DNA of 33,914 nt from Alphaproteobacteria bacterium MarineAlpha3_Bin7 (GCA_002937995.1 PTLG01000009.1:1-33914); one strand, 5' to 3'; shown: positions 1-22,550, counted from the stretch's first letter. The notes: generated from the letters alone by a model not told the origin. Made by a program: numbers and translations.

Positions 1-1158
1 GTCCCCAGAATTTTTCACATATGCAACTCGGTCACTATTGGTATTACCGTCTAATAGCGCCCTATGAAGCCAATCAATAACATATTGATGACAATCTAGG
101 CCTCCTAGATTTGGAAGTCCCCATAGCGGATGAAACTGATCCTCTATAACCCACATCTCCTTGTTGCATGTAAGGTCCTGGTACACTTCAATAGCATCTT
201 CAAGAGGGCACAAGGGATCAAACTCTCCTGTCACCAATAATGTTGGGCAAGTGATCTTGTCAGCATAACCCTTCACCGTCATGTCCTTAGCCATTTTATC
301 AAACTCGTCTTCATCTTCCATACCAGCCATGTACATAAACACCTGCTTAAATCTTGGAGAAGACTGAGAAAAAATAGTGTTATTAGGATTAAAGCATGCG
401 ACACCGCTTGCTAAAGCAGCTGCGCGATGATCATAACTAGCTAATCTCAGGGACCAATAACTCCCCATACTAATACCATAAACACCTATCTTCTCGCTAT
501 CTACCTCTTCGCGGTCCTGCAAATAATCCATGACGGCGGCACCTGCTCTTTCATAATTATCTCCCACCGCTCTAATCTTCTGTATATTAGAGTTACCTTG
601 CCCTGGTCCGTCCATCGACAATATATGCATACCCCTTGCAATAGCTGGGTTGTTCACGGCTTTTGGGAAGGCCTCTTTACTTTGATCCATTCCTGGCACG
701 TATATAACACAGGGTGCTTTTCTGCGGTCAGGCAATAGATGCAAAAGGCATGAAATAGTCTTTCCGTCATCAAAGGGAACCTCAACGCGCTCTATCGGAT
801 ATGAGGCAACTTCGCTTCTTCTATCAACCATTTCTGACAATTTATTATATGTTGAAATTTTTACCGGGTTATCATCATAAAATATTGGGTGCTGAGCCAT
901 TCTATAACCCTCTATAGCATGGTCATAATGCTCAGTTGCTGTGGTGTTAAAACCCTGCTTTTGCGCTTGTTTTGCCAAATTTTCATCATGCTCAGCTTTT
1001 TCCCTCCACATCTTTGGCAGCATTCTATAATTGTGAGCTCTTTTAGGAGTTTCCCAATCATCTCTCTCAAAGTTTTGAACTCTCCCCCTCATATTGAGTG
1101 CGAGATCAAGCATCCACTGCTGGTTATCTCTTCGGGTCCTTAGATCTTTAACTGGCAT
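1..1158 (-). CDS. Alpha/beta hydrolase, FrsA/DUF1100-like (C-terminus cut by window edge)
   Basis: The open frame runs from ATG at 1158 (GGAGG ribosome site just upstream) to the window edge without a stop, giving 386 visible residues; the true C-terminus lies outside. The catalytic core is an alpha/beta hydrolase: nucleophile elbow GISMG with Ser230, oxyanion-type segment YVPGMDQS near 153-160, acid candidate Asp314 in GEFDPLC and general base His343 in QFHPLWG. A helical N-terminal cap of about 120 residues precedes the core. This layout resembles the FrsA/DUF1100 group, which includes the C-C bond hydrolase of pyridine catabolism (2,6-dihydroxypseudooxynicotine hydrolase). It is the last visible gene of the minus-strand operon starting at 8634, so a hydrolytic step in the same catabolic route is inferred. 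The substrate cannot be told from sequence; an ordinary esterase is the alternative. Confidence 0.85.
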   Translation of the reverse strand, partial: MPVKDLRTRRDNQQWMLDLALNMRGRVQNFERDDWETPKRAHNYRMLPKMWREKAEHDENLAKQAQKQGFNTTATEHYDHAIEGYRMAQHPIFYDDNPVKISTYNKLSEMVDRRSEVASYPIERVEVPFDDGKTISCLLHLLPDRRKAPCVIYVPGMDQSKEAFPKAVNNPAIARGMHILSMDGPGQGNSNIQKIRAVGDNYERAGAAVMDYLQDREEVDSEKIGVYGISMGSYWSLRLASYDHRAAALASGVACFNPNNTIFSQSSPRFKQVFMYMAGMEDEDEFDKMAKDMTVKGYADKITCPTLLVTGEFDPLCPLEDAIEVYQDLTCNKEMWVIEDQFHPLWGLPNLGGLDCHQYVIDWLHRALLDGNTNSDRVAYVKNSGD

Positions 1159-1223: not shown

Positions 1224-1706
1224 TCAGTCATTCCAATCTTTTTGTGGGCTATCTGGATTTGAGAAAAGACCAACAGACTTTATTCCCATAATTGCACAAT
1301 ATTCATCCCTATTTGATGTGTCCCCGCTGATCCCAACAGAACCAATGGCCTCTTCGTTATCATTACAAATCAGAACACCTCCCGGCACTGGTATGAACCT
1401 GCCACCAGACGCTGCAGACAATGCGCCCTGAAACGCAACCCGGTCCTTTAATCTCTCTGCTGTTCGACGACTTGGAGCACCCATTCCCAATGCACCCCAT
1501 GCCTTTCCTATAGCTATGTCAGCTCTCAAAATTCCGGAACCGTCTTCTCTTTGAAATGATACCAGATGCCCACCAGCATCTAATACTGCAATCGTAAGGG
1601 GCTGCATTTCGTACGATCTCGCTTCGTGTAAAGCCTGAACAATTATTCCATTAGCTTTTTCTAAAGGCAATGTTACAATTAGAGAATTCTTATTTTTACT
1701 CGCCAC
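1224..1706 (-). CDS. GlcG/HbpS family protein (heme-degrading / PduO C-terminal-like fold)
   Basis: A 160-residue single-domain protein, starting at GTG 1706 with GAGG seven bases upstream. The family signature is clear: AVLDAGGHLVSFQREDG near 40-56, then RADIAIGKAWGALGMG, the PVPGG stretch and a GSVGISG segment. Members include GlcG, the heme-binding HbpS and the C-terminal domain of the corrinoid adenosyltransferase PduO; biochemical roles are mostly unclear, with heme (and reportedly cobalamin) binding shown for a few. No signal peptide is visible, so it should be cytoplasmic. It sits in the operon of a corrinoid-type reductive dehalogenase, so tetrapyrrole or corrinoid handling is an attractive but unproven inference. 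Family membership is secure; function is not. Confidence 0.85.
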   Translation of the reverse strand: MASKNKNSLIVTLPLEKANGIIVQALHEARSYEMQPLTIAVLDAGGHLVSFQREDGSGILRADIAIGKAWGALGMGAPSRRTAERLKDRVAFQGALSAASGGRFIPVPGGVLICNDNEEAIGSVGISGDTSNRDEYCAIMGIKSVGLFSNPDSPQKDWND

Positions 1707-1797: not shown

Positions 1798-2928
1798 CTA
1801 CTTGGAAAATTCCTCACGAACAATCCGTGTATGCTCCCCACAATATGGCACCCCCTTAAGCTTATTTTTAGAACCCAGCACCTTGTATGGTGGCGAAGGT
1901 ATTCTAACTGGCCCACTTTCCGTGTTGACTGTAGTTCTACGGAGATCGGAATGCTTTGACAGGCCCTCTACATTATTCAGGTAGCCATAGGCAATATCAT
2001 TTTGTCTCAGGAGTTTGGATAATTGAACCGAAGTTTTACTTAAAAAATATGAGCCAATCTTTTTCTCAAGAGACTTTCTGTTCTTAACTCTTGAAATATT
2101 TGATGAAAACCTTTTATCCTCCAATAATTCTGGTGTTCTCAAAACCCTTACAACAAATTTATTCCACTCTCTATCATTTTGAATTGATATTACGATAACC
2201 TTATCGTCCTTGGTAACAAAAGAAGAGTATGGGGCTATGGATGGATGCCTAAGACCCATCCGCTTCGGAGATTTTCCGCCATAATCGAAATGAAGAAGCG
2301 GTACAGCCATCCATTCTGCCATACTATCAAATAGAGAGCATGTAATAGCCTGACCCTTTCCACTAATCTTTCTTTCTATTATTGCATTTAATATTGCAGC
2401 ATGTGCATTCATTCCAGCCGCTATGTCACATACAGAAACCCCCACCCTACTAGGTTCCCTAGAAGAACCCGTTACTGATGATAGGCCAGTTTCCGCCTGA
2501 ACGAGCATATCATACGCCTTCATTTCCCTTGACGGACCGTCACTGGAATATCCGGAAATATCACAGGTAATTAACCGCGGGTATTTTTTTCTCAGCTTTT
2601 TAGAATCAAACCCGGCTCTTTTGGCAGCACCAGGGCCCAAATTTTGTAAAAAAACATCGGCTTTAGAAATAATGCTTTCTAAAAGCCTTTTGTCTTCGCC
2701 CTCTTTGATATCAAGAACAACTGACTCCTTGCCCCGATTAAGCCAGACAAAATATGCACTTTGTCCATTTACCACATCATCATAACCCCTTGCGAAATCT
2801 CCTTCCTTTCTCTCTATCTTTATTACTCTAGCACCTGCATCTGCTAGTCTAGACGAACAATATGGGGCGGCGACTGCTTGTTCTAAAGCAACCACTAAAA
2901 TATCCGATAGGGGCTTATTGCTTGCCAT
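1798..2928 (-). CDS. CaiB/BaiF class III CoA-transferase
   Basis: Class III CoA-transferases move CoA between carboxylic acids through an enzyme-aspartyl intermediate. The N-terminal segment ALEQAVAAPYCSSRLADAGA, the ARVIKIERKEGDFARG CoA-binding region and the NRGKESVVLD motif are typical. The catalytic Asp lies in KAYDMLVQAETG, about residue 140. I prefer the ATG at 2928 because a GGA ribosome site lies upstream at suitable distance; a GTG at 2940 would add four residues. The protein is about 376 residues, slightly short of the usual 390-430 but with no obvious deletion. It follows the indolepyruvate oxidoreductase stop by about 20 bases, so cotranscription is likely. It may activate the acid product or substrate of this pathway; the exact acid is unknown. 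Confidence 0.9.
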   Translation of the reverse strand: MASNKPLSDILVVALEQAVAAPYCSSRLADAGARVIKIERKEGDFARGYDDVVNGQSAYFVWLNRGKESVVLDIKEGEDKRLLESIISKADVFLQNLGPGAAKRAGFDSKKLRKKYPRLITCDISGYSSDGPSREMKAYDMLVQAETGLSSVTGSSREPSRVGVSVCDIAAGMNAHAAILNAIIERKISGKGQAITCSLFDSMAEWMAVPLLHFDYGGKSPKRMGLRHPSIAPYSSFVTKDDKVIVISIQNDREWNKFVVRVLRTPELLEDKRFSSNISRVKNRKSLEKKIGSYFLSKTSVQLSKLLRQNDIAYGYLNNVEGLSKHSDLRRTTVNTESGPVRIPSPPYKVLGSKNKLKGVPYCGEHTRIVREEFSK

Positions 2929-2949
2929 TTTGATTTCCACTTAATTACT

Positions 2950-5900
2950 TTATTCAGCTGCCTGAACGTTTTTTTGGTTGTTACGAAATAGCTCAGCCAA
3001 ATCATTTTTCTCTTGATCAAAATCGTTTAAGGAATCTGATTTTACGTGACCATATCCCCTTACTTTCTGGGGTAGATTTAATAGACTAAGGGCCACATCA
3101 AAATTAACAGAATTAAGATCACTCAATACCATTGTTAAAATTTCTTTATATTGTCTAAGAAATTTTCTTTCTATTTGTCGATCTCGATGGTAACCAAAAA
3201 CATCCAGCTTTGACGCTCTTAAAAACCTTAATCTTGAGATTATTTTTAATACAGGTGTCATCCACCAACCTTTAAACTCTATCTTTCTTGGGTTTCCAGT
3301 AATTGGATCAATACGCGCAAATAGTGGGGGAGCAAAGTTATACGATATACTGTAGTTACCATCAAATTGCTCAGTAAGGGCTCTCATAAACTTTGATGAT
3401 GTAAACAACCGAGCCACCTCATACTCATCCTTATAAGCCATAACTTTGAACAAGTTTCTTGCGGCCGCTTCTTCCAGCTCTCGGCTATTTGGCCTGATAG
3501 ACTTTTCACTAAGTTTAACTCTTTCAAGCCAGCTAATGTATTGGTCAGCATAACCTTGATCTTGGTAAAGAGTTAAATCATCAACACGCTCTGCAACAAA
3601 TTCATCAAGTGAAAATTTAGTTTTGTTTATCTCTAAGCTAGTGTCTTCTACCTTGGGAAGTTTTTCTCTGTCAGTTGCTGCCACCCTTCCCCAGGAAAAG
3701 GCTTCCAAATTATCTTCTACTGAAACCCCATTAAGTTTTATTGCCGACGCTATTGCGGCTGCCGAAAGAGGAATTAATCCTCTCTGAAAAGCAAACCCCA
3801 TAAGAAATATATTAGCACAAATACTATCACCCATTACCTTTGCAGATAGCTCAGTTGAATTGATTTTTTCAAGGTTTTCCTCACCAATCCTTGCAACTAT
3901 AACATTTTTGTAACCTTCGGATGACAGCGGCATATCGGGCTTTTCAGCAAAGGCCGCAATCGGCACAAGATGATCGTTGATTATTGCAGACGTTCGTTCA
4001 TTACTCATGCAGCTCACTGCTTCCGCCCCGGCAGCAACAATCATGTCAAAACCAAGTAGCAAGTCAGCCATGCCTGTTCCTACTCGCGTTCCAAATGTTC
4101 TATTTTGATCATTTGAAAGCCTTATATGGCTCATAACAGCTCCATTTTTCTGAGATAACCCTGTTTGATCTAGAACTGAGCACCCGACTTTATCGATGCT
4201 AGCTGCTGTTCCCAGGATTGCTGCAGTTGTAATCACGCCAGTACCGCCAATTCCGGTTAAAAGAATATTGTAGGACTCGGATATATTCTTGGAGATAGGA
4301 TCTGCAAGCTCACTAAACAGATCAATTTTTGGCCTATTTGGTTTTTCGAAACGCCGAATTTCTCCGCCATGAACTGTAACAAAACTAGGGCAAAAACCAT
4401 CCAGGCATGAAAAATCTTTATTACAAGAAGACTGATCAATTATTCTTTTACGACCAAGCTCTGTTTCTTTTGGCTGGACAGACACACAGTTAGAGGCTGA
4501 ATTACAATCGCCGCAGCCTTCGCAAACACTTTCATTAATAAAAACTCTTTTTGGAGGATCTATTAATATTCCTCTTTTCCTGCGCCTGCGCTTTTCAGCG
4601 GCACAAGTCTGGTCAAATATAATAGCGGTAACACCGGTGATTTCCCTTAACTCTATTTGTATTCTCTCTAATTCCTTTCGGTGATATACCTTACAATCTT
4701 GTGGCCAATTTATGCCCCTAGGGTATTTATCTGGCTCGTCTGAAAGAACTACTATCTTACCTAATCCTTCAGAGCGAAGTTGCTGCGCTATATCCCACGG
4801 GAGCAATTCTCCATCCATAGGCTGCCCACCTGTGAGAGCCACGGCGTCATTGTATAAAATCTTGTAGGTTATATTTACCCCAGAGGCTACCGCAGCCCGG
4901 ATGGCCAGCAACCCAGAATGAAAGTAGGTGCCATCTCCAATATTTTGAAAGACATGTTTTTCACTCGTAAAAGGCGCCTGACCAATCCAAGTCCCTCCCT
5001 CAGCGCCCATATGAGTATATGCATCAGTATTCCGATCCATAAAAACTGCCATGGTGTGGCAACCAATTCCAGCGAGAGCCCGGCTCCCTTCCGGAACCTT
5101 GGTAGAACTATTATGGGGACACCCCGAGCAAAACCAGTAGGATCTCTCAGGTGGTGATGTTGGCAAATTCGAACTATCAGTTTTTGCGTTAAGTTTAGCG
5201 ATGGCAGCATTTAAACAATTTTGACCTCCTTCCTCTAAATATCTACCTGCTATTATCTGAGCTACCTTTGTACCCGATAACTCACCATACTCAGGCACTA
5301 TAGGAACACCGTTCTCATCAAATTTACCCGTAATTTTTGGTCGAATATTATTGGGCAACTTATAAAGTATTTTTGCGGCCTGCTCTTCGATAAGTGACCT
5401 CATCTCTTCAATTATTAGTAATTCATCAAAGCCTGATGCCCACTCAATAAGACTATTTGGCTCTAAGGGCCAGGGCATAGAAACTTTAAAGACACTGATC
5501 CCCAACTGTTCGCGCTCAGTATCCGACATTTGAAGTTCTTCAAACGCCTGGCAAACATCCAGCCAAGATTTCCCAGCTGCTATTATTCCCAGTCGCTTTT
5601 TTTCAGATTTATGCGTAACAATATTTAATTGGTTTATTTTGACAAATGCCTCAACGGCTTTCAATTTTATCGATATAAGTCTTTTTTCTTGCTCAACGGG
5701 CTTGTCCGGCCAACGAATGTGAACACCCTCCTCCGGCAATGGAAAATCCGGAAGAGAGGGCTCAAAACCTAGGGTGTCCAGCGACACATTTGCTGAACCC
5801 TCTACAATATCTCCTACACACTTAATGCCCACCCATGCGCCCGAAAATCTTGAGAGCTCAAAACCATATAGCCCATAATCCAAATATTCCTGAACCGATG

Positions 5901-6342
5901 AGGGATAAAATATTGGGATCATGGCTGCAATTAAAGCCTGCTCAGATTGATGAGCTGTAGTTGAAGATTTGGCACCGTGATCGTCACCAGCTAAAACTAA
6001 AACCCCACCATTCTGTGAAGTCCCCGCCATATTTCCATGCTTCAAGGCATCCCCTGAACGATCAACACCCGGACCTTTTCCATACCAAATCGAGAACACA
6101 CCGTCATATTGCGCACCGGGTCGAAGACCTACTTGCTGCGTCCCCCAACATGCCGTAGCTGCTAAATCCTCGTTCACTCCAGGCTGAAACTTTATCTTAT
6201 AAGTATCTAAATGGGATTTAGCTCGCCATAAGGCTGTATCATATCCACCTAAAGGTGAGCCTCGATAGCCAGAAATATAGCCTGCTGTATTCAATCCCCT
6301 TTTAACGTCTAGCCTCCTCTGAAGCATAGGTAATCTAACCAA
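2950..6342 (-). CDS. Indolepyruvate:ferredoxin oxidoreductase, fused long form
   Basis: This enzyme decarboxylates aryl-2-oxoacids to aryl-acyl-CoA and reduces ferredoxin. The chain (1130 residues from the TTG at 6342) has, in order, a pyrimidine-binding half with GYRGSPLGGYD near 25-35, a thiamine-diphosphate half with GDGTYFHSG near 469-477 and NDAVALTGGQP, an Fe-S segment (Cys607, Cys610, Cys613, Cys619, then Cys640, Cys646, Cys651), and a C-terminal gamma-type domain beginning LLTGIGGTGVITTAA near 694. This is the fused arrangement common in proteobacteria. The TTG is only the first canonical start in frame: family-like sequence (DTGRAFLSGTQA) continues upstream to about 6426, so the real N-terminus is probably about 28 residues longer and uses a non-standard codon. 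It lies directly downstream of the reductive dehalogenase and may share electrons or substrate with it. Confidence 0.93.
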   Translation of the reverse strand: MVRLPMLQRRLDVKRGLNTAGYISGYRGSPLGGYDTALWRAKSHLDTYKIKFQPGVNEDLAATACWGTQQVGLRPGAQYDGVFSIWYGKGPGVDRSGDALKHGNMAGTSQNGGVLVLAGDDHGAKSSTTAHQSEQALIAAMIPIFYPSSVQEYLDYGLYGFELSRFSGAWVGIKCVGDIVEGSANVSLDTLGFEPSLPDFPLPEEGVHIRWPDKPVEQEKRLISIKLKAVEAFVKINQLNIVTHKSEKKRLGIIAAGKSWLDVCQAFEELQMSDTEREQLGISVFKVSMPWPLEPNSLIEWASGFDELLIIEEMRSLIEEQAAKILYKLPNNIRPKITGKFDENGVPIVPEYGELSGTKVAQIIAGRYLEEGGQNCLNAAIAKLNAKTDSSNLPTSPPERSYWFCSGCPHNSSTKVPEGSRALAGIGCHTMAVFMDRNTDAYTHMGAEGGTWIGQAPFTSEKHVFQNIGDGTYFHSGLLAIRAAVASGVNITYKILYNDAVALTGGQPMDGELLPWDIAQQLRSEGLGKIVVLSDEPDKYPRGINWPQDCKVYHRKELERIQIELREITGVTAIIFDQTCAAEKRRRRKRGILIDPPKRVFINESVCEGCGDCNSASNCVSVQPKETELGRKRIIDQSSCNKDFSCLDGFCPSFVTVHGGEIRRFEKPNRPKIDLFSELADPISKNISESYNILLTGIGGTGVITTAAILGTAASIDKVGCSVLDQTGLSQKNGAVMSHIRLSNDQNRTFGTRVGTGMADLLLGFDMIVAAGAEAVSCMSNERTSAIINDHLVPIAAFAEKPDMPLSSEGYKNVIVARIGEENLEKINSTELSAKVMGDSICANIFLMGFAFQRGLIPLSAAAIASAIKLNGVSVEDNLEAFSWGRVAATDREKLPKVEDTSLEINKTKFSLDEFVAERVDDLTLYQDQGYADQYISWLERVKLSEKSIRPNSRELEEAAARNLFKVMAYKDEYEVARLFTSSKFMRALTEQFDGNYSISYNFAPPLFARIDPITGNPRKIEFKGWWMTPVLKIISRLRFLRASKLDVFGYHRDRQIERKFLRQYKEILTMVLSDLNSVNFDVALSLLNLPQKVRGYGHVKSDSLNDFDQEKNDLAELFRNNQKNVQAAE

Positions 6343-6441
6343 TGCCTGGGTACCGGACAGGAATGCTCGACCGGTATCTGATACATATTTTGTATCAAGG
6401 GTTAACGTTTTATCATCCTCAAGGATCTCTATTACTCCAAT
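6343..6441 (-). other. Conserved N-terminal extension of the indolepyruvate oxidoreductase without ATG/GTG/TTG start
   Basis: The frame stays open from 6342 back to a TAA at 6454-6456. It encodes residues typical of the family N-terminus (LDTKYVSDTGRAFLSGTQA) but has no ATG, GTG or TTG. A GGAG at 6438-6435 sits eight bases before an in-frame ATC at 6426, and in-frame ATA (6432) and ATT (6441) also exist. The one nearby ATG (6446) is in another frame and stops after four codons. The possibilities are a rare Ile-codon start, a sequencing or assembly error, or coupling to the upstream gene ending at 6463. Confidence 0.6.
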
Positions 6442-6462
6442 TCCATTATAATCTTACCTTAC

Positions 6463-8634
6463 TCAAATACGCCTAGATGATTTATAGTTTGGTTTATATT
6501 CTTTTGGGGGCTTACCACCGGCAGCTCGCCTAGCTAAGGCTTCATGCACAGTTTCTGCATTTTCAGCAAATTTAAGGCCCTGTCTACGGTCCGTCGGTGA
6601 AACTTCCATCAAATCAGGTGGAGGTAATGTTGAAGCAGGAAAATATGCAATACTATCCTTTTCTCTTTTTTTCTTACCTGGTTTTATTTTAGGCCGGTTA
6701 GCGTCCTTCGCTTTAACTACTATATTTTCTGGATCATATTTGAAAGATCGCTTACCCTTCACCTCCAAATCTAGCCACCATTTTTTCTCATCTAGCGGAT
6801 TACCATAACCAAGAAAATCATCTAACCAAACGGCAATAGGTACTAATACCGGCTTTAACCACATTGCATTGATGCCAAGCCAACTGCCCACTTGGTGTAA
6901 GATCGGACCATCCAGGGTTGTATCCTTGCTTAAGGGACAAACCTTAACACACCTGCCACATGCAGATCCCTTTAGATTAGTTGCTCTATAAATGGTGCAC
7001 CGCTCGCTATCTGGCTTCCATGTCTCATAACCATTAAATATTACCTTCTCACCATAAGGTATTGCGTTACAAGGGCACTCCCGAGCACATTTCTGACATT
7101 TTGAGCAAAATGTCTGCACTCCAAAATCGATAGGCTTATCAGGCTTTAACGGCATATCTGTCGTTAGAACAGCCGTCTTAAAACGCATTCCTAAAAATGG
7201 GTTAATTGCACTCTCTCCAATCCTACTTTGCTCCCCCAGTCCAGCATGAATTACCAGAGGAACATGTAGAACGTGACTATCCAGATTAGAGTGTGATCTT
7301 GCTGAAAAGCCCATCTGCCTTATCATTTCAGCCATGACACCAACTATCTCCGCTCCTCTCAGATAAGCCCTCATCGATTGCGAGCCAGATATCCAATCGT
7401 TACCAGTGGCACCAAGGAAAGTCTCGTAGCCCTGGTCAATAAGTACTACTAATGCGTATTTATGATAGGGCTCTATTTCCCTGCCTCGCTTGTCGTGCGA
7501 ATACCAGCAATAGTCCGGGATTTCACAAATACCACTAATGGAAGACCCCATATAATAGCTAAGCGCTTTTAAAGCATTGGTATTTTCTTCAGGATTGCCG
7601 TTACTAATAGAATTATCCTCCGCTACAGTTCCATCCTGCAATGGCTTTATAGCCCAACTAGGGCGAACAATCCCTTGGGAAACCGGATGCTTCTGAGACC
7701 AGCGGTCTGCCTCCATTCGCGTTTTTTCGCCAATGTCACCCAAAGCAGTCCGCATATACATATTTGCTCTACTAGGCACCCGTGGAACCTCATCTGAAAA
7801 AATATGCGTAGTGGGCTTTTCCACTCTCTTTAATTTTTCCACAGGATAAGGCCCTAAGTGAGACGATCTTTTTTTTCTTCTCCACCTCTCAATCCCGGAT
7901 ACTCCGCCAGAAAGCCCAAAAAAGTAATCGAGGTCTCGTCCACTTCTTATTGACCCACTTAATGGTAAATCTATTTGCAAAGGATAGTTTGTTGTTACTA
8001 CGGCAATAGAAAACCGGTTATCAAAATAAGGATTAAAAATATTTGATTTGTCTCTTATAGCTAAACCGGATAGGACCGCCGCCTTTTCCAAATCAACATC
8101 TGCAGCTCCCTGCCAATGTGTGCAGCTGAGAAAGCCCATAGATGAAATTTGACCACCAAGATTTATTGCAATTTCTGCTGCTCTCAAGGTTGAGATAAGA
8201 CCCTCTATTCCTTGCACCCACTCTGAAGCTTTATTATCTATATCAATAGGATCTGAGTGCTCTACAACAATTACCACGGCATGAGTGTGCAAAAATGTTC
8301 TGCCAACCCAAAGGGTTTCAGGAATTTCACAAATCCCTATTTGACTAGCATCCAAAAAGTAACCTGCCCCTTTGATATCTCTTGTTCTCAAAGATAAGTC
8401 ATCCGGAACAGGTGCCAAATCCTTAAAGGGCTCAGCCTCTCTCAACTCCTCGTATGCTGATAAATGTTTATTTATTGCTAAAATCAAAGGAGTTAAGTGG
8501 GAAATCTCTGTGTCACTGTGTACACCATGCTTTGCTGCAGCTTCAGATTTGATGATAGTTGCATCTCGCTTTAGCCGCTCAGCAGGAAACGGTCCCAATT
8601 CCACAGGCCGCTTGGATCTATTAATTCCGAACAT
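6463..8634 (-). CDS. Cytoplasmic reductive dehalogenase (NpRdhA-like, corrinoid and two [4Fe-4S])
   Basis: A 723-residue protein from ATG 8634, with no Tat or Sec signal, so soluble and catabolic rather than respiratory. It contains two tandem copies of one domain: LGPFPAERLKR (13-23) with GICEIPETLW (100-109), and LGPYPVEKLKR (260-270) with GICEIPDYCW (368-377). The second copy runs into two [4Fe-4S] motifs: Cys510, Cys513, Cys516, Cys520-Pro, and Cys546, Cys559, Cys562, Cys566-Pro. Tyr424, Lys486 and Arg550 have the same spacing (62 and 64) as the catalytic Tyr426, Lys488 and Arg552 that I recall for the ortho-dibromophenol dehalogenase NpRdhA. The first copy has Thr149 and Ser209 at the Tyr and Lys positions and no clusters, so it looks catalytically dead. 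No reductase domain is fused, so electrons must come from a separate ferredoxin or flavodoxin system. It heads the minus-strand operon. Confidence 0.85.
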   Translation of the reverse strand: MFGINRSKRPVELGPFPAERLKRDATIIKSEAAAKHGVHSDTEISHLTPLILAINKHLSAYEELREAEPFKDLAPVPDDLSLRTRDIKGAGYFLDASQIGICEIPETLWVGRTFLHTHAVVIVVEHSDPIDIDNKASEWVQGIEGLISTLRAAEIAINLGGQISSMGFLSCTHWQGAADVDLEKAAVLSGLAIRDKSNIFNPYFDNRFSIAVVTTNYPLQIDLPLSGSIRSGRDLDYFFGLSGGVSGIERWRRKKRSSHLGPYPVEKLKRVEKPTTHIFSDEVPRVPSRANMYMRTALGDIGEKTRMEADRWSQKHPVSQGIVRPSWAIKPLQDGTVAEDNSISNGNPEENTNALKALSYYMGSSISGICEIPDYCWYSHDKRGREIEPYHKYALVVLIDQGYETFLGATGNDWISGSQSMRAYLRGAEIVGVMAEMIRQMGFSARSHSNLDSHVLHVPLVIHAGLGEQSRIGESAINPFLGMRFKTAVLTTDMPLKPDKPIDFGVQTFCSKCQKCARECPCNAIPYGEKVIFNGYETWKPDSERCTIYRATNLKGSACGRCVKVCPLSKDTTLDGPILHQVGSWLGINAMWLKPVLVPIAVWLDDFLGYGNPLDEKKWWLDLEVKGKRSFKYDPENIVVKAKDANRPKIKPGKKKREKDSIAYFPASTLPPPDLMEVSPTDRRQGLKFAENAETVHEALARRAAGGKPPKEYKPNYKSSRRI

Positions 8635-8746
8635 TAAACTTACCCTATTATATAACAGCCCATTCTTATTTGAAGCTTATCATAACAATTTTAATCTTAA
8701 AATAATTAGGTTAATCTCTATAAATCAAACTATTGGGTAGAGTTAA

Positions 8747-10285
8747 ATGCACACTCCGAGTGTTAGTAAACAGAATTCCGATGAAAAACCAGAAACCATT
8801 GTCCATGCATTGATCCACGCAACAAAAGCTAATCCGAAAAAAATTGCTGTTTATTGTGGGAACAAATTCGAAACTTATGAAGAGGTAAATAAGAAAGCCA
8901 CCGGTGTTGCTGCCTCACTAAAAGATCTGGATATTTGCCGGGGTGACCGTGTCGCTGTAATCCTACCCCCGTCTTCAGCTATTTTTTCTTTATTTTTTGG
9001 AGTAATGGCATGTGGGGCCCAATTAACATTGATTAACCCTCGGTTGCCAAAAGCTGAGCTAGAAATACTAGTTGAAATTAGCAAGCCTTCATTAATCATA
9101 TGTGATACAAACCTGACGAATCTTCTCACAGACTTTTCTAAAAAAATGGAAACTAAACTCATATCCTGCAAGGAAGATCTAATACAAGTCAATGAGGACA
9201 AATTAGATTCTTTAGAGATTCCATCTGCTAATGATATAGCTTTAATACTTTTTACCGGAGGTACAACCGGATCTCCAAAGGGGGTTCCTCACACGCATAA
9301 ACAAGTTATAAGTGCGATAACAGCAATTGAAGATAGATGGACATCGAGGAATGGTCAGGAGATATTTTTAAATATTCCACCATTATTTCATATTGTTGGT
9401 TTGTTTCATGGATGCTTTCAACCAGTTCTCTCTAATTCGACATCGGTCCTACTAGAGAGCTTTGACCCGTCTATAGTATTTAAGCTTTTTGAAGAATTGA
9501 AAGTTACCATTTGTGTTGCTGGCGCACCCTCTTCTTATATAGCTATGCTTAATCATCCTGAATTTTCAAAAATAGATTTCAATAATCTACGTTTTTTTTG
9601 TGGGGGTGGAGCACCCTTGGCTAGCGAGACGCTAAAGGAGTGGGAGGATATAACTGGCGTACCTGTGCTGGAAGGTTATGGAATGACTGAAGGCGCCCCA
9701 ACTTGTAATAATCCATTGAACGGAACGCGAAAACTTCTCTCGGTTGGAAAGCCAGTTTTAGGAATAGAGTTAGAAATTGTGGATATCGAAACAGGGAAAA
9801 AATTAATGCCACCTAAAGAACCAGGTGAAATAAGGGTAAGGGGTAGTCATATTACCGCGGGTTATCTCGATAATATTGAAGAGACAAATAATACATTTCG
9901 CAACGGATGGCTGTATACTGGCGATATAGCCTACGTTGATGAAGAAAATTACGTTTTCATCATTGATAGGGTAAAGGAGATGGCAATTATCAGCGGATTT
10001 AATGTTTTTCCAAGAGAGATTGATGAAGCGTTGATGACCCATCCTGAAATAAGTGAGGCTGCAACTATCGCTCTTCCTCATAAATCAAAGGGTGAAATAA
10101 TAAAATCCTTCTTAAAATTAGTGAGTAGTTCAGAGATAACTGAAAATGAAATCAAGGATTACTGTCGGGAAAGATTGATAAGTTATAAAATACCTTCGGA
10201 GATAGAGTTTTGCGCCAACCTCCCAAAAACGCCTATAGGGAAAATAGATAAAAAGTTGTTGAAGAAAAATTCAATTAATAAATAA
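8747..10285 (+). CDS. AMP-forming acyl/aryl-CoA ligase (ANL superfamily)
   Basis: Activates a carboxylic acid to its CoA thioester via an acyl-adenylate. At 512 residues it has the family's normal length. The phosphate-binding motif FTGGTTGSPKG lies near 169-179, followed by the GYGMTEGAP motif, YTGDIAYVDEENYVFIIDR and the C-terminal catalytic lysine motif PKTPIGKIDKK. It resembles 4-coumarate and medium/long-chain CoA ligases, but the acid is not predictable. It starts 112 bases from, and divergent to, the reductive dehalogenase, so a shared regulatory region and a linked role in activating an aromatic acid are plausible. The ribosome site is weak (GTAGAG). No motif is missing. Confidence 0.92.
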   Translation: MHTPSVSKQNSDEKPETIVHALIHATKANPKKIAVYCGNKFETYEEVNKKATGVAASLKDLDICRGDRVAVILPPSSAIFSLFFGVMACGAQLTLINPRLPKAELEILVEISKPSLIICDTNLTNLLTDFSKKMETKLISCKEDLIQVNEDKLDSLEIPSANDIALILFTGGTTGSPKGVPHTHKQVISAITAIEDRWTSRNGQEIFLNIPPLFHIVGLFHGCFQPVLSNSTSVLLESFDPSIVFKLFEELKVTICVAGAPSSYIAMLNHPEFSKIDFNNLRFFCGGGAPLASETLKEWEDITGVPVLEGYGMTEGAPTCNNPLNGTRKLLSVGKPVLGIELEIVDIETGKKLMPPKEPGEIRVRGSHITAGYLDNIEETNNTFRNGWLYTGDIAYVDEENYVFIIDRVKEMAIISGFNVFPREIDEALMTHPEISEAATIALPHKSKGEIIKSFLKLVSSSEITENEIKDYCRERLISYKIPSEIEFCANLPKTPIGKIDKKLLKKNSINK

Positions 10286-10367: not shown

Positions 10368-11192
10368 ATGGGACTAGAATATCCACTAATAGATGTAAAT
10401 AATATTTCCGAATCTGAAAATAGGCTAGGCGCTGAACTCAAACTTGCCATTTCGGAGGACGAGGGTAGTAGCACGATAGCACATCACATGACCCTTAAAC
10501 CTGGACTTGAAACTCTTCATCATCAGAGCGACAACTGCACAGAAATCTTGGTATGTATATCTGGAAAAGGAAAGGTGACAATAGGGAGTAAAGATATAGA
10601 TATACGTACTGGGCATAGTATTCATCTTCCTGTCAAAACTCCTTTTAAATTAAAAAATGAAACTGATAGCCCTGTCGAGTTTGTTGGCTTCTGCATTAAT
10701 GCTGGTTCGCTAGAAAATCTTGCTTTCTCTGAAGCCAGAGAAATATCAGATTCAGTTTTATCAGATGAGTTGGTTATCCACTGGGATAATGTTAATCCAG
10801 AAAATATGAAAAAAAATGATGGTTGGCATATTAACGACTTTAGACTTCCCTTTGGTAATCATACTAACAGCTCTACTACACTATTTAGAGCACTATTTTT
10901 TCCTGGAGCAGTGCACAAAAAACACTCTCATCAGAACTGTGAGGAAATTTACTATATAATTAGTGGACATGGGCTTGCCGGTGCTGGGCCTGATAGAGTA
11001 GAAGTAACAGCAGGTCAGTTTCATTACATACCGGCAGGCGTAGAGCATTGGCTTTATAATCTAAGTGAAACTGATCCCATACATGTCGTTGGAGTCTATA
11101 TTAACGCAGGTAGTGTGGAAGAGACCGGTTATATTTATCATGGAGATGTGACACCCAAAGATATTAAGTCCCGAACAATTTTAGATGATTAG
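10368..11192 (+). CDS. Two-domain cupin (bicupin) protein
   Basis: Two cupin barrels lie in tandem in 274 residues. The first (about 35-115) has LHHQSDNCTEI with His51/His52 and Glu59, but lacks the usual last His. The second (about 170-250) has HKKHSHQNCEEIYY with His186, His188 and Glu192, then IPAGVEHW with His227, a complete metal site. Each barrel ends in a similar strand containing INAGS, which supports internal duplication. Bicupins include dioxygenases, isomerases and decarboxylases, so the reaction is unknown; the second barrel is the likely active one. A GGAGG ribosome site precedes the ATG. The next gene, a Gfo/Idh/MocA dehydrogenase, begins 11 bases downstream, so the two are probably cotranscribed and may act on one sugar-like or hydroxy-acid substrate. 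Confidence 0.8.
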   Translation: MGLEYPLIDVNNISESENRLGAELKLAISEDEGSSTIAHHMTLKPGLETLHHQSDNCTEILVCISGKGKVTIGSKDIDIRTGHSIHLPVKTPFKLKNETDSPVEFVGFCINAGSLENLAFSEAREISDSVLSDELVIHWDNVNPENMKKNDGWHINDFRLPFGNHTNSSTTLFRALFFPGAVHKKHSHQNCEEIYYIISGHGLAGAGPDRVEVTAGQFHYIPAGVEHWLYNLSETDPIHVVGVYINAGSVEETGYIYHGDVTPKDIKSRTILDD

Positions 11193-11203
11193 GATATCAC
11201 AAT

Positions 11204-12205
11204 ATGTTAAATGCAGCTGTTATAGGACTTGGTTGGTGGGGAAAACATATCATTTCCTGCTTAGAGGATAGTGACCGTATAAATATTTCCATGGCGATGG
11301 ATATAAGCTCAAATGAGGGCAAAAATTTTGCCAGTCAATCGGGCCTTAAATTTACTGATAACTTTGATGAAGTATTGAAAAGTAAGGATATCGATGCCGT
11401 AATTATCGTAACGCCTCATAGTCTTCATGAAGAACAAGTGATCAAAGCTGCCGACGCAGGAAAACAAATTTTTTGCGAAAAACCCTTCTCGCTGACTTCT
11501 GAGTCTGCAAAGAGAATGTTATCTGCCTGCCAAGAGCATAATTTAGTTGTTGGAATAGGCCATGAAAGACGGTTCGAATATGGATTAATCGAAATGAAGA
11601 AAATGGTTGATGAAGGGGAAATAGGTAAATTGCTTCATATGGAATTTAATGCCTCCTATAATTTATTTGCCGGAAGCCCGGCATCGGGGTGGAGACAAGA
11701 TCCTAAACAGGCTCCCGCGGGTACTATGACAGCACTTGGTATTCACCAAACCGACTACATACAGACAATAGGAGGGCCAATTAAATCTGTTTATGCCAGA
11801 ATGGCCCATAGGTCAGATAACTACCCTACAGAAGATATTATTGCTATCCAGTTCGTTTTTGAAAGCGGTATGCTTGGGTCCTTTTGCTCCTTAGCTACGA
11901 CACCCTTTTATACTCGCATGAGTGTGTTCGGTGATAAGGGCTGGGCAGAACTTCGCGATTTGGACAATGTAGACAAGCCAACACCGACACTTCTAACTTG
12001 GAGAGGAATAGATGAGGAAGTCCATACCCGAACCTATAAAAAACGAAACAGAGAAACAGTAATTGCTAACTTTCATGAATGGGCGGACGCCGTTATGAAA
12101 AAAGGTACTTATCGATTTAGCCAAGAACAAATCCTTCACAACGTACAAATACTTGATGCAATAGTTAGATCAGCAGCGAGCAAGGAAGTGATCGAAATAG
12201 TTTAA
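11204..12205 (+). CDS. Gfo/Idh/MocA family NAD(P)-dependent oxidoreductase
   Basis: The N-terminal Rossmann fold has AVIGLGWWGKH (residues 5-15) and the family's signature EKP at 92-94 in FCEKPFSL. The C-terminal alpha/beta domain begins near residue 125 and contains GIHQTDYIQTIGGP, whose His-Asp pair is typical of the catalytic region. The length (333 residues) is normal. Members oxidise or reduce sugars, inositols, pseudo-sugars and some aromatic diols such as dihydrodiols and phthalate intermediates. It follows the bicupin closely and is convergent with the CoA ligase ending at 12225. Substrate is unknown; either a polyol or a cis-diol is conceivable. Confidence 0.88.
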   Translation: MLNAAVIGLGWWGKHIISCLEDSDRINISMAMDISSNEGKNFASQSGLKFTDNFDEVLKSKDIDAVIIVTPHSLHEEQVIKAADAGKQIFCEKPFSLTSESAKRMLSACQEHNLVVGIGHERRFEYGLIEMKKMVDEGEIGKLLHMEFNASYNLFAGSPASGWRQDPKQAPAGTMTALGIHQTDYIQTIGGPIKSVYARMAHRSDNYPTEDIIAIQFVFESGMLGSFCSLATTPFYTRMSVFGDKGWAELRDLDNVDKPTPTLLTWRGIDEEVHTRTYKKRNRETVIANFHEWADAVMKKGTYRFSQEQILHNVQILDAIVRSAASKEVIEIV

Positions 12206-15107: not shown

Positions 15108-15998
15108 TTATTGTCCTGGGCGTTTTAATTCAACCTGATCTTTAGAGGCAAAGGAAACCGCAAGAATCACTAGTGCTGCACCCATAAGCTCAATTGGTGA
15201 GAGAAATTGATCCAATATGATCATCCCAAAAAAAACACTCGAAACTGGTTCTAAATTCATGAACAAGGATGTCTTTATGGCTCCTATCTTTGACAACCCA
15301 ATAAACATTCCAATTATAGAAAATGCGTAAAACAAACCAGATAAAATAAAAGCAACAACCCCTATATTATCGCTTGGAAGAGGGAATTCTCCGACAACAA
15401 TATCAAGTAATAGGAAACAAACTGAAGCTGAAGAGGTCGTATAAATACTTATAGACTTGGCATCTTGGCCTTTTAAAATTGAATTAGTTATAAGTAATAC
15501 GAAGGTAATTCCAACTGCTGCCGTTAATGCTAAGCAAAAACCAATCAGGTTTAAACTAGAACCTCCTCCTAAGGTAATAGATAGACCAAAAAATGCTACA
15601 ATGATACAGACCCATAACTTTAGAGTCATTTTTTCCTGTCCTAAAATCCAGGCACCAAGGCTCGTAAAGACGGGATACAGATAAAATATAAGTACCGCCA
15701 ACGCTACAGGAATATGTTCTATTGAAGCCATTAATCCGTATGAATAGGTAGCGAGTAAAACTCCGACAAGAATGGAAACTAGAGCAATTTTGGGGGGCAA
15801 CAATATGGAGGAATTAGAAATCTTTTGAATGACTAGAACTGCGATGGCAGCCAAAATGGTTCTGTATGTTAAAACTGACAGCGGTGATGCCCCGTAGTCG
15901 TAAGATAGCTTACCCAAGGTTGAATTTGCCGCAAAGCTTATTGCAACTATAATAATTAGAATAGTACCTGAGATTTGATTTGAAGAGACAGACGACAC
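15108..15998 (-). CDS. EamA-family drug/metabolite transporter
   Basis: A very hydrophobic 296-residue protein with about ten predicted membrane helices in two EamA repeats: the first from about 10 to 140, the second from about 150 to 285, with the family's LxxxEPVxSxxxGxxxLxExxxxxxxxG-like pattern in SLFMNLEPVSSVFFGMI. DMT exporters of this kind expel amino acids or metabolites. The start is GTG at 15998 with an AGAGGG ribosome site close upstream. The gene ends 30 bases before the thiolase start, so it may be first in an EamA-thiolase-ligase transcript. It is divergent from the carboxymuconolactone-decarboxylase gene across 158 bases. Substrate is unknown. Confidence 0.9.
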   Translation of the reverse strand: MSSVSSNQISGTILIIIVAISFAANSTLGKLSYDYGASPLSVLTYRTILAAIAVLVIQKISNSSILLPPKIALVSILVGVLLATYSYGLMASIEHIPVALAVLIFYLYPVFTSLGAWILGQEKMTLKLWVCIIVAFFGLSITLGGGSSLNLIGFCLALTAAVGITFVLLITNSILKGQDAKSISIYTTSSASVCFLLLDIVVGEFPLPSDNIGVVAFILSGLFYAFSIIGMFIGLSKIGAIKTSLFMNLEPVSSVFFGMIILDQFLSPIELMGAALVILAVSFASKDQVELKRPGQ

Positions 15999-21192: not shown

Positions 21193-21243
21193 AATATATC
21201 TATGTGATGAAGAATTAACTTTTTTCGATCACATAGATATATT
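21193..21243. terminator. Perfect 16-bp inverted repeat between convergent genes
   Basis: Arms AATATATCTATGTGAT (21193-21208) and ATCACATAGATATATT (21228-21243) are exact reverse complements with a 19-base loop. The right arm lies inside the last codons of the minus-strand aldo/keto reductase gene, whose stop is at 21215-21217, and the structure sits 36 bases after the TAXI gene stop. A bidirectional terminator or mRNA 3'-end stabiliser is likely. The stem is AT-rich and neither side has a clean T-run, so classical Rho-independent termination is uncertain. Confidence 0.55.
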
Positions 21244-22414
21244 CATTTCCACTAACCTTACTATCCAAAAGTCTATTGCCAGAATTATCACAGTATTCGA
21301 TAAAGTCAGTAGCTGAACTCGGATCTGTAGAAACTACCCTGAGCACTTGCTGATTTTCCATCCCTCTCAACTCTTTTTTAGCCTTCAGCACTGGCAAAGG
21401 GCACTTCAATCCTGAAGTATCCAACTCTACGTCAACTTCTCGATGGTCTACTTTTGGACCAGACCCACCTGGGTACTCAAGGCCTACTCCTTCTAGATGG
21501 CTGAATAATTCCCTTAACTTGCGTTGATCTGTTTCCGGCAATGGATCTGAATTAATAGATTTTACATTGGACCTTAAATGATCCTCAGAGCCGGTACCGA
21601 ATAATATAACATCACTACCTGAGTGATGCCTAACAAACCTATAACAAGCATCAATAATGCTTGATGCTCCATTTTCGCTGATCAGAAACGATAGCGGGTC
21701 ATCATTATTAGACAGACTATCCGGCAATTTTCCCTGTTCGACCAATGTGTCAATTGCTGCTTTATAATAATCTACATTTGTGAAAATACGCCTGACCGCA
21801 AACATAATAAGCGTACCGACTTTTTTTTCCTGAGATTGCGGAAATACTAATTGTTCCGCATTCTGGTTCAGCATGTGGTATGCAACCATCACTACATCGA
21901 ATAAATTTTCCTCAATAGCCTTGATAAGCGTCTCATGCCTGTGATCACCAGGAGCATTCTCGGTAACACCAAGATACTTAAACTTACCCTTGTCTCTTTC
22001 CTCTAAAAGCTTGGGAACAATATTATCTAAAACATGTCCATACCACTTAGGGTAAAGCCCATGCAGATGAAAAACATCAACATATTCTACACCCAGAGTT
22101 TTTAAAGAATTTTCCAAGCCATTTATGATTTCCTCTGGGGTGACTACTACGCCTGCCCATGCCGGGTGAAACTTAGTGGATAATACTACATCGTCCCTAT
22201 TAATGTCAGCTATCGCCTTTCCCACTGCAGGTTCCGTCCCATAACTACTAGCTGTGTCTATAAAATTTACACCTAAATCTATGGCCTTTCTTATTAAATC
22301 AACAGCAGCATCCTCTGTGCCACCGTTGGACAAACCCAGTTTAGATCCTCCCCCGCAACCGAGTCCAGCTACGCTTACCTTTAGCCCTGTTCTTCCTAAA
22401 ATTGTATATTCCAT
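21215..22414 (-). CDS. Aldo/keto reductase with C-terminal TusA-like sulfur-carrier domain
   Basis: The N-terminal part (residues 1 to about 315 from ATG 22414) is an aldo/keto reductase: LGRTGLKVS, then Asp53 and Tyr58 in NFIDTASSYG, Lys81 in STKFHP and His116/His118 in VFHLHGL, giving the catalytic tetrad of NADPH-dependent reductases. Residues about 325-398 form a TusA/SirA-like domain with DTSGLKCPLPVLKAKKEL, including the CPxP motif (Cys338) that carries persulfide sulfur in TusA. No frameshift or stop separates them, so this is a true fusion; I know of no well-studied example. Longer upstream frames (to 22495, TTG) lack a good ribosome site and add no family sequence; the AKR fold starts at MEYTILG. 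It is divergent from an FAH-family gene. Confidence 0.88.
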   Translation of the reverse strand: MEYTILGRTGLKVSVAGLGCGGGSKLGLSNGGTEDAAVDLIRKAIDLGVNFIDTASSYGTEPAVGKAIADINRDDVVLSTKFHPAWAGVVVTPEEIINGLENSLKTLGVEYVDVFHLHGLYPKWYGHVLDNIVPKLLEERDKGKFKYLGVTENAPGDHRHETLIKAIEENLFDVVMVAYHMLNQNAEQLVFPQSQEKKVGTLIMFAVRRIFTNVDYYKAAIDTLVEQGKLPDSLSNNDDPLSFLISENGASSIIDACYRFVRHHSGSDVILFGTGSEDHLRSNVKSINSDPLPETDQRKLRELFSHLEGVGLEYPGGSGPKVDHREVDVELDTSGLKCPLPVLKAKKELRGMENQQVLRVVSTDPSSATDFIEYCDNSGNRLLDSKVSGNEYIYVIEKS

Positions 22415-22550
22415 AAAATGACCATCAATTAGTGTAACTTTTAAGTCTTGTTTATAACCGGCCATAGAAATACAGTTTATATGTCTTGGGCACAAGGCTG
22501 GTTAAAGTCAATACACTCAATAGAGCATTGATTAATGCAGGGGGAAGTAA

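Follow-up and report, generated by a model that had tools for sequence, protein, structure and literature searches.

A reductive dehalogenase and its recurrent genomic partner, an indolepyruvate:ferredoxin oxidoreductase, in a marine alphaproteobacterial family

NpRdhA of Nitratireductor pacificus pht-3B (PDB 4RAS, 6ZXU) is a soluble, tandem-domain reductive dehalogenase (RDH) that carries B12 and two [4Fe-4S] clusters, and has no reductase fused to it. BhbA and JtRdhA, in contrast, are self-sufficient, with a fused PDOR-type reductase run by NAD(P)H. Reductase-less catabolic RdhAs need an external electron donor; for NpRdhA, the cognate route could not be reconstituted, and the products of its own gene neighbours failed to drive the enzyme in vitro (PMC10463259). 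Regarding substrates, JtRdhA accepts 3-bromo-4-hydroxyphenylacetate at a level close to that of the brominated compound it uses best (PMC10463259).

Here we describe an RDH that lies next to a long-form indolepyruvate:ferredoxin oxidoreductase (IOR). The window, meaning the whole stretch of 33,914 nucleotides that was analysed, is one contig of the draft genome of Alphaproteobacteria bacterium MarineAlpha3_Bin7 (2.58 Mb, 92% complete). On its minus strand, RDH, IOR and a CaiB-type CoA-transferase form a co-directional cluster, which continues with an HbpS-like protein and a hydrolase. From position 8747, three genes run in the opposite direction. The features are, in this order:

6463..8634, minus strand: NpRdhA-type RDH, 723 amino acids (TIGR02486, match to 4ras, invariant residues)
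2950..6432 (start approximate; tool ORF 2950-6342), minus strand: long-form (fused) IOR (NF009589, POR, TPP and DUF6537 domains, N-terminal comparison)
1798..2940, minus strand: CoA-transferase family III, CaiB type (PF02515, 326.7 bits; synteny)
1224..1706, minus strand: HbpS-like protein (PF03928, 102.6 bits; also present in G294)
1..1158, minus strand, reaching the contig end: FrsA-like alpha/beta hydrolase (PF06500)
8647..8674, minus strand: sigma-70-like promoter match 5' of the RDH (10/12, a consensus match and no proof of function)
8747..10285, plus strand: acyl-CoA ligase (ACS1), transcribed away from the RDH (PF00501/PF13193)
10368..11192, plus strand: bicupin, next after ACS1, syntenic in G294 and G295 (PF07883)
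11204..12205, plus strand: Gfo/Idh/MocA oxidoreductase, syntenic in G294 and G295 (76%; PF01408)

The initial annotation had placed an RDH and a complete IOR side by side, and domains and profiles confirm both identities at these positions. It had also considered the two genes probably translationally coupled, which is not supported. RDH and IOR do not overlap, the true gap being about 30 bp, and in G294 and G295 a gene for a 307-aa EamA transporter stands between them, so that coupling of these genes is not conserved. The spacing from IOR to CaiB is 9 bp, and by synteny CaiB is a conserved neighbour of the IOR clade of the window. Synteny likewise shows ACS1 kept in G294, G295 and G308; in G296 and G305 it lies close to the IOR. 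A sequence scan, which is weak evidence, showed no terminator-like site between RDH and IOR. Neither a ferredoxin nor an aminotransferase gene is present in the window cluster.

Several other features of the window were recorded. Its own EamA gene (15108-15998) was considered as the relocated conserved EamA; this was not supported, because it does not cluster with the conserved EamA proteins. The FrsA-like hydrolase is 90% identical to the copy in G294, compared with 55-70% for IOR, RDH, CaiB, ACS1 and bicupin and 76% for the Gfo/Idh protein, reflecting either an unusually strong conservation or a recent exchange. One frame (21215-22495) joins an aldo-keto reductase match (residues 28-226) with a TusA-type sulfur carrier (352-425). 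Between 17230 and 25742, genes for an extradiol dioxygenase, an aldo-keto reductase and a HisD-like dehydrogenase form a second conserved catabolic block, which is also grouped near an RDH in G289 (L105), where HisD is 81% identical to that of the window.

The window RDH scores 185.8 bits against TIGR02486 (curated cut-off 160.35) and matches NpRdhA (4ras) over its full length (residues 8-703, E 7e-156 with phmmer, ~523 bits), an alignment which reveals the duplicated domain, one vestigial and N-terminal, the other catalytic. The catalytic residues Y424, K486 and R550 are present and correspond, with S420 and M421, to Y426, K488, R552, S422 and M423 of NpRdhA, whose roles have been described (PMC7565698). 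Eight cysteines (C510, C513, C516, C520, C546, C559, C562 and C566), invariant in an alignment of eight relatives, account for two [4Fe-4S] clusters. In the pocket, the NpRdhA residues F290, F291, F310, P311 and A419 correspond to M, Y, W, S and G in the window RDH, whose substrate therefore need not match that of NpRdhA. The catalytic module and, as a prediction for the window enzyme, ortho-halophenol chemistry are shared with BhbA and JtRdhA. As the initial annotation had noted, the fused reductase of these two enzymes is missing: Pfam and NCBIfam scans found no C-terminal FMN/2Fe-2S domain. The N-terminus MFGINRSKRPVELG lacks a twin-arginine (TAT) signal, and the gaps on its two sides, ~30 and 112 bp, are too short for an rdhB anchor gene, which argues against a respiratory RdhA. 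The PF13486 profile gave no match in the window genome, nor in any control, and is therefore uninformative. Judged from its sequence, the protein is predicted to be a soluble, reductase-less, NpRdhA-type catabolic dehalogenase. The genome also encodes at least one further complete RDH (759 aa; L078 9604-11883), and a partial RDH gene stands at the end of a contig (L079 16944-17495).

The IOR scores 1494 bits against NF009589 (cut-off 816) and shares the domain order of proteobacterial long-form IORs, with TPP (PF02775), POR (PF01558) and C-terminal DUF6537 (PF20169) domains. Its [4Fe-4S] cysteine motifs, CEGCGDCN..NC..SCNKDFSC..GFC, are conserved in the clade. The initial annotation was right about the complete set of domains. 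The TTG listed as the start, at 6342, is internal and truncates the N-terminus. In relatives, the protein opens with DG..LTLD(S/T)KY; the window frame has the counterpart, EDDKTLTLDTKY, further upstream, and homology runs in frame to ~6432. Since only ATA, ATT or ATC, and no ATG, GTG or TTG, is found there, the gene either starts at a rare codon or contains a sequence error. The missing start codon, together with a protein composition that departs from that of the alignment and a long terminal branch within the clade, would fit a non-functional copy, either decaying or wrongly assembled. We consider this very improbable, because the frame is intact over 1130+ codons with all domains and cluster cysteines, CaiB follows closely downstream, and no other long IOR than the ORF at 2950 was found in the window genome. 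The protein is a full-domain long-form IOR, for which an arylpyruvate substrate is predicted.

RDHs and IORs were mapped over 317 genomes of the order Rhodospirillales. The IORs of the window's family form one clade (56-67% identical), separate from all others (46-54%) and found in this family only among the genomes searched. The clade is often linked to RDH and CaiB: in 11 of the 15 genomes that carry it (G000, G294, G295, G304, G307, G308, G310, G289, G298, G299 and G300), an RDH lies within ~6 kb on the same contig, compared with ~0.7 genomes expected by chance if six RDHs per genome are assumed. The unlinked genomes are G292, G293, G305 and G296, the latter with a short contig. Counted by genera, the linkage occurs in five of seven (P about 5e-6, an approximate value with phylogeny not fully modelled). 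The adjacency across the family is therefore beyond chance, real and non-random.

Furthermore, the RDH at this spot belongs to at least three or four different lineages. These are the type of the window, G294 and G295; a 735-aa type (~50%) in G289 and G298-G300; a single-domain type (449-455 aa) in G304, G307 and G308; and a 500-aa type in G304 and G310. The arrangement can also be reversed. G298-G300 carry the orthologue of the window RDH away from the IOR (L083, L085 and L090) and another RDH near it, while in the window genome it is the other RDH whose orthologue lies elsewhere, on contig C216. The 500-aa proteins (L069 11678-13186; L067 16595-18097) score very highly against TIGR02486 and show no obvious TAT signal. 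In G298-G300, a gene of the BhcC-like 3-hydroxyaspartate aldolase family (below cut-off; L071 15802-16962) lies beside the IOR-linked RDH. A pair of SAICAR synthetase-like and xylose isomerase-like TIM barrel genes recurs, near an RDH in G289 (L070 15579-17535) and near the IOR in G305 (L077 992-2853).

A second case was found outside the family. In two species of the alphaproteobacterial genus g283 (G600, loci L148 and L216; G508, locus L212), a split IorA-IorB pair is located directly upstream of an RDH. The genes for IorA (715 aa) and IorB (523 aa) share 4 nt, and the reductase-less RDH (711 aa) follows IorB after ~30 bp in L148 (31 bp in one of the species). As in the window, an IOR-type enzyme adjoins a reductase-less RDH, but this IOR is split, non-orthologous and only ~24% identical to that of the window, the gene order is opposite, and the neighbourhood is different, lacking the core genes of the window-type (f1) IOR. 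Because the loci are syntenic between the two species, we counted them as one event. In the sister genus g565, the orthologues of IorA and RDH are on different contigs.

The initial annotation had asked whether such neighbours are more frequent than chance and had named restriction to one genome as a result that would speak against it. The family-wide counts and the g283 operon answer both points in favour of the association. They also bear on the idea of a catabolic island, in which RDH and IOR became neighbours by chance and were kept so by common descent in one family. The window is indeed rich in genes for aromatic catabolism, and the linkage is limited to one family and one genus. Against this stand the excess over expectation in both genomes and genera, the changing lineage of the RDH at the spot, and an independent operon with opposite gene order. 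We regard such regional clustering as improbable, and as the sole explanation it is already unlikely.

The pairing also has clear limits. Among 134 distinct RDH places examined, an IOR is nearby in only two lineages; RDHs were searched for by tblastn here, since antisense ORFs mask some of them in an ORF-based scan. The nearest relatives of the window RDH (69-72%) have neither an IOR nor ferredoxin-reductase genes nearby, and family members without a long IOR still carry RDHs. A dedicated, obligate donor role of the IOR was thus ruled out by the close RDH relatives that lack it; the IOR is a recurrent, not a required, partner. Ferredoxin-reductase genes are absent beside most of the reductase-less RDHs examined, which speaks for electron supply by the IOR; when the surroundings of ~95 RDH and IOR loci were searched for genes of FNR/PDOR or small ferredoxins, there were only three matches, all weak and FNR-like. 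A plasmid search returned RDH relatives of only ~34-38%.

These limits give weight to a rival explanation, a shared pathway. RDH and IOR would catalyse consecutive steps in the breakdown of one halogenated aromatic: the halogen might go first, followed by oxidative decarboxylation of the side chain and CoA transfer, and the RDH would draw electrons from the general ferredoxin pool. The core of IOR, CaiB and EamA, together with a RipC-like lyase, a hydrolase and a CoA ligase, is kept with or without an RDH. In G305 (L077), it has no RDH nearby, which suggests that the IOR has a function in catabolism apart from dehalogenation and makes a shared substrate pathway a serious rival. Related RDHs without a neighbouring IOR, and the activity of the homologous JtRdhA on a side-chain acid that resembles an IOR product (PMC10463259), fit this explanation as well. 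A shared pathway alone does not explain why split IOR genes and an RDH form an operon in g283, without the f1 core genes. We consider it quite possible, though not our first choice. From linkage alone, a common electron flow and a common substrate cannot be told apart.

The reading we favour, plausible and close to an even call, is that the IOR supplies the RDH with electrons through ferredoxin, within an operon that would serve the catabolism of halogenated aromatic acids. In the established chemistry of these families, each oxoacid gives an IOR two electrons for ferredoxin, and each halogen costs an RDH two. In the window genome, a two-cluster ferredoxin (111 aa) is encoded elsewhere. The IOR would oxidatively decarboxylate an aryl-2-oxoacid to aryl-acyl-CoA and CO2, thereby reducing soluble ferredoxin, and the CoA-transferase would recycle the CoA. 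Reduced ferredoxin could then serve as low-potential donor to the adjoining B12/[4Fe-4S] enzyme, which would take off a halogen ortho to the phenol hydroxyl. In this scheme, each oxoacid oxidised would provide the two electrons for one halogen removed. Electron supply is favoured because of the electron stoichiometry of the enzyme families, the ferredoxin in the genome, the substrate of JtRdhA and the unproven donor of NpRdhA (PMC10463259). It is speculative that the oxoacid and the halogenated ring belong to a single molecule.

The initial annotation went further and proposed a self-sufficient dehalogenation module. The recurrent association agrees with that proposal, while its strict form is weakened by the closest RDH relatives without an IOR. 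The pairing in the family and in another lineage nonetheless suggests a natural power source for such dehalogenases. In its broadest form, IOR-type enzymes would be the physiological ferredoxin-reducing partners of reductase-less RDHs, assembled at least two times with unrelated IORs and possibly powered by the substrate's own side chain, for example that of a halotyrosine-derived arylpyruvate; this we hold to be rather unlikely. Searches of the open-access literature found no described RDH-IOR pairing and, among the papers listed, no link of reductive dehalogenases to halotyrosines.

The window RDH is thus a variant of a familiar enzyme type, and the IOR is a new sort of genomic neighbour for it. 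The natural electron source of reductase-less catabolic dehalogenases is unsettled, and a recurrent ferredoxin-reducing partner is a specific candidate which makes this question testable. If the proposed electron supply is true, halogen cycling in common marine bacteria would be tied to catabolism of the amino-acid type.
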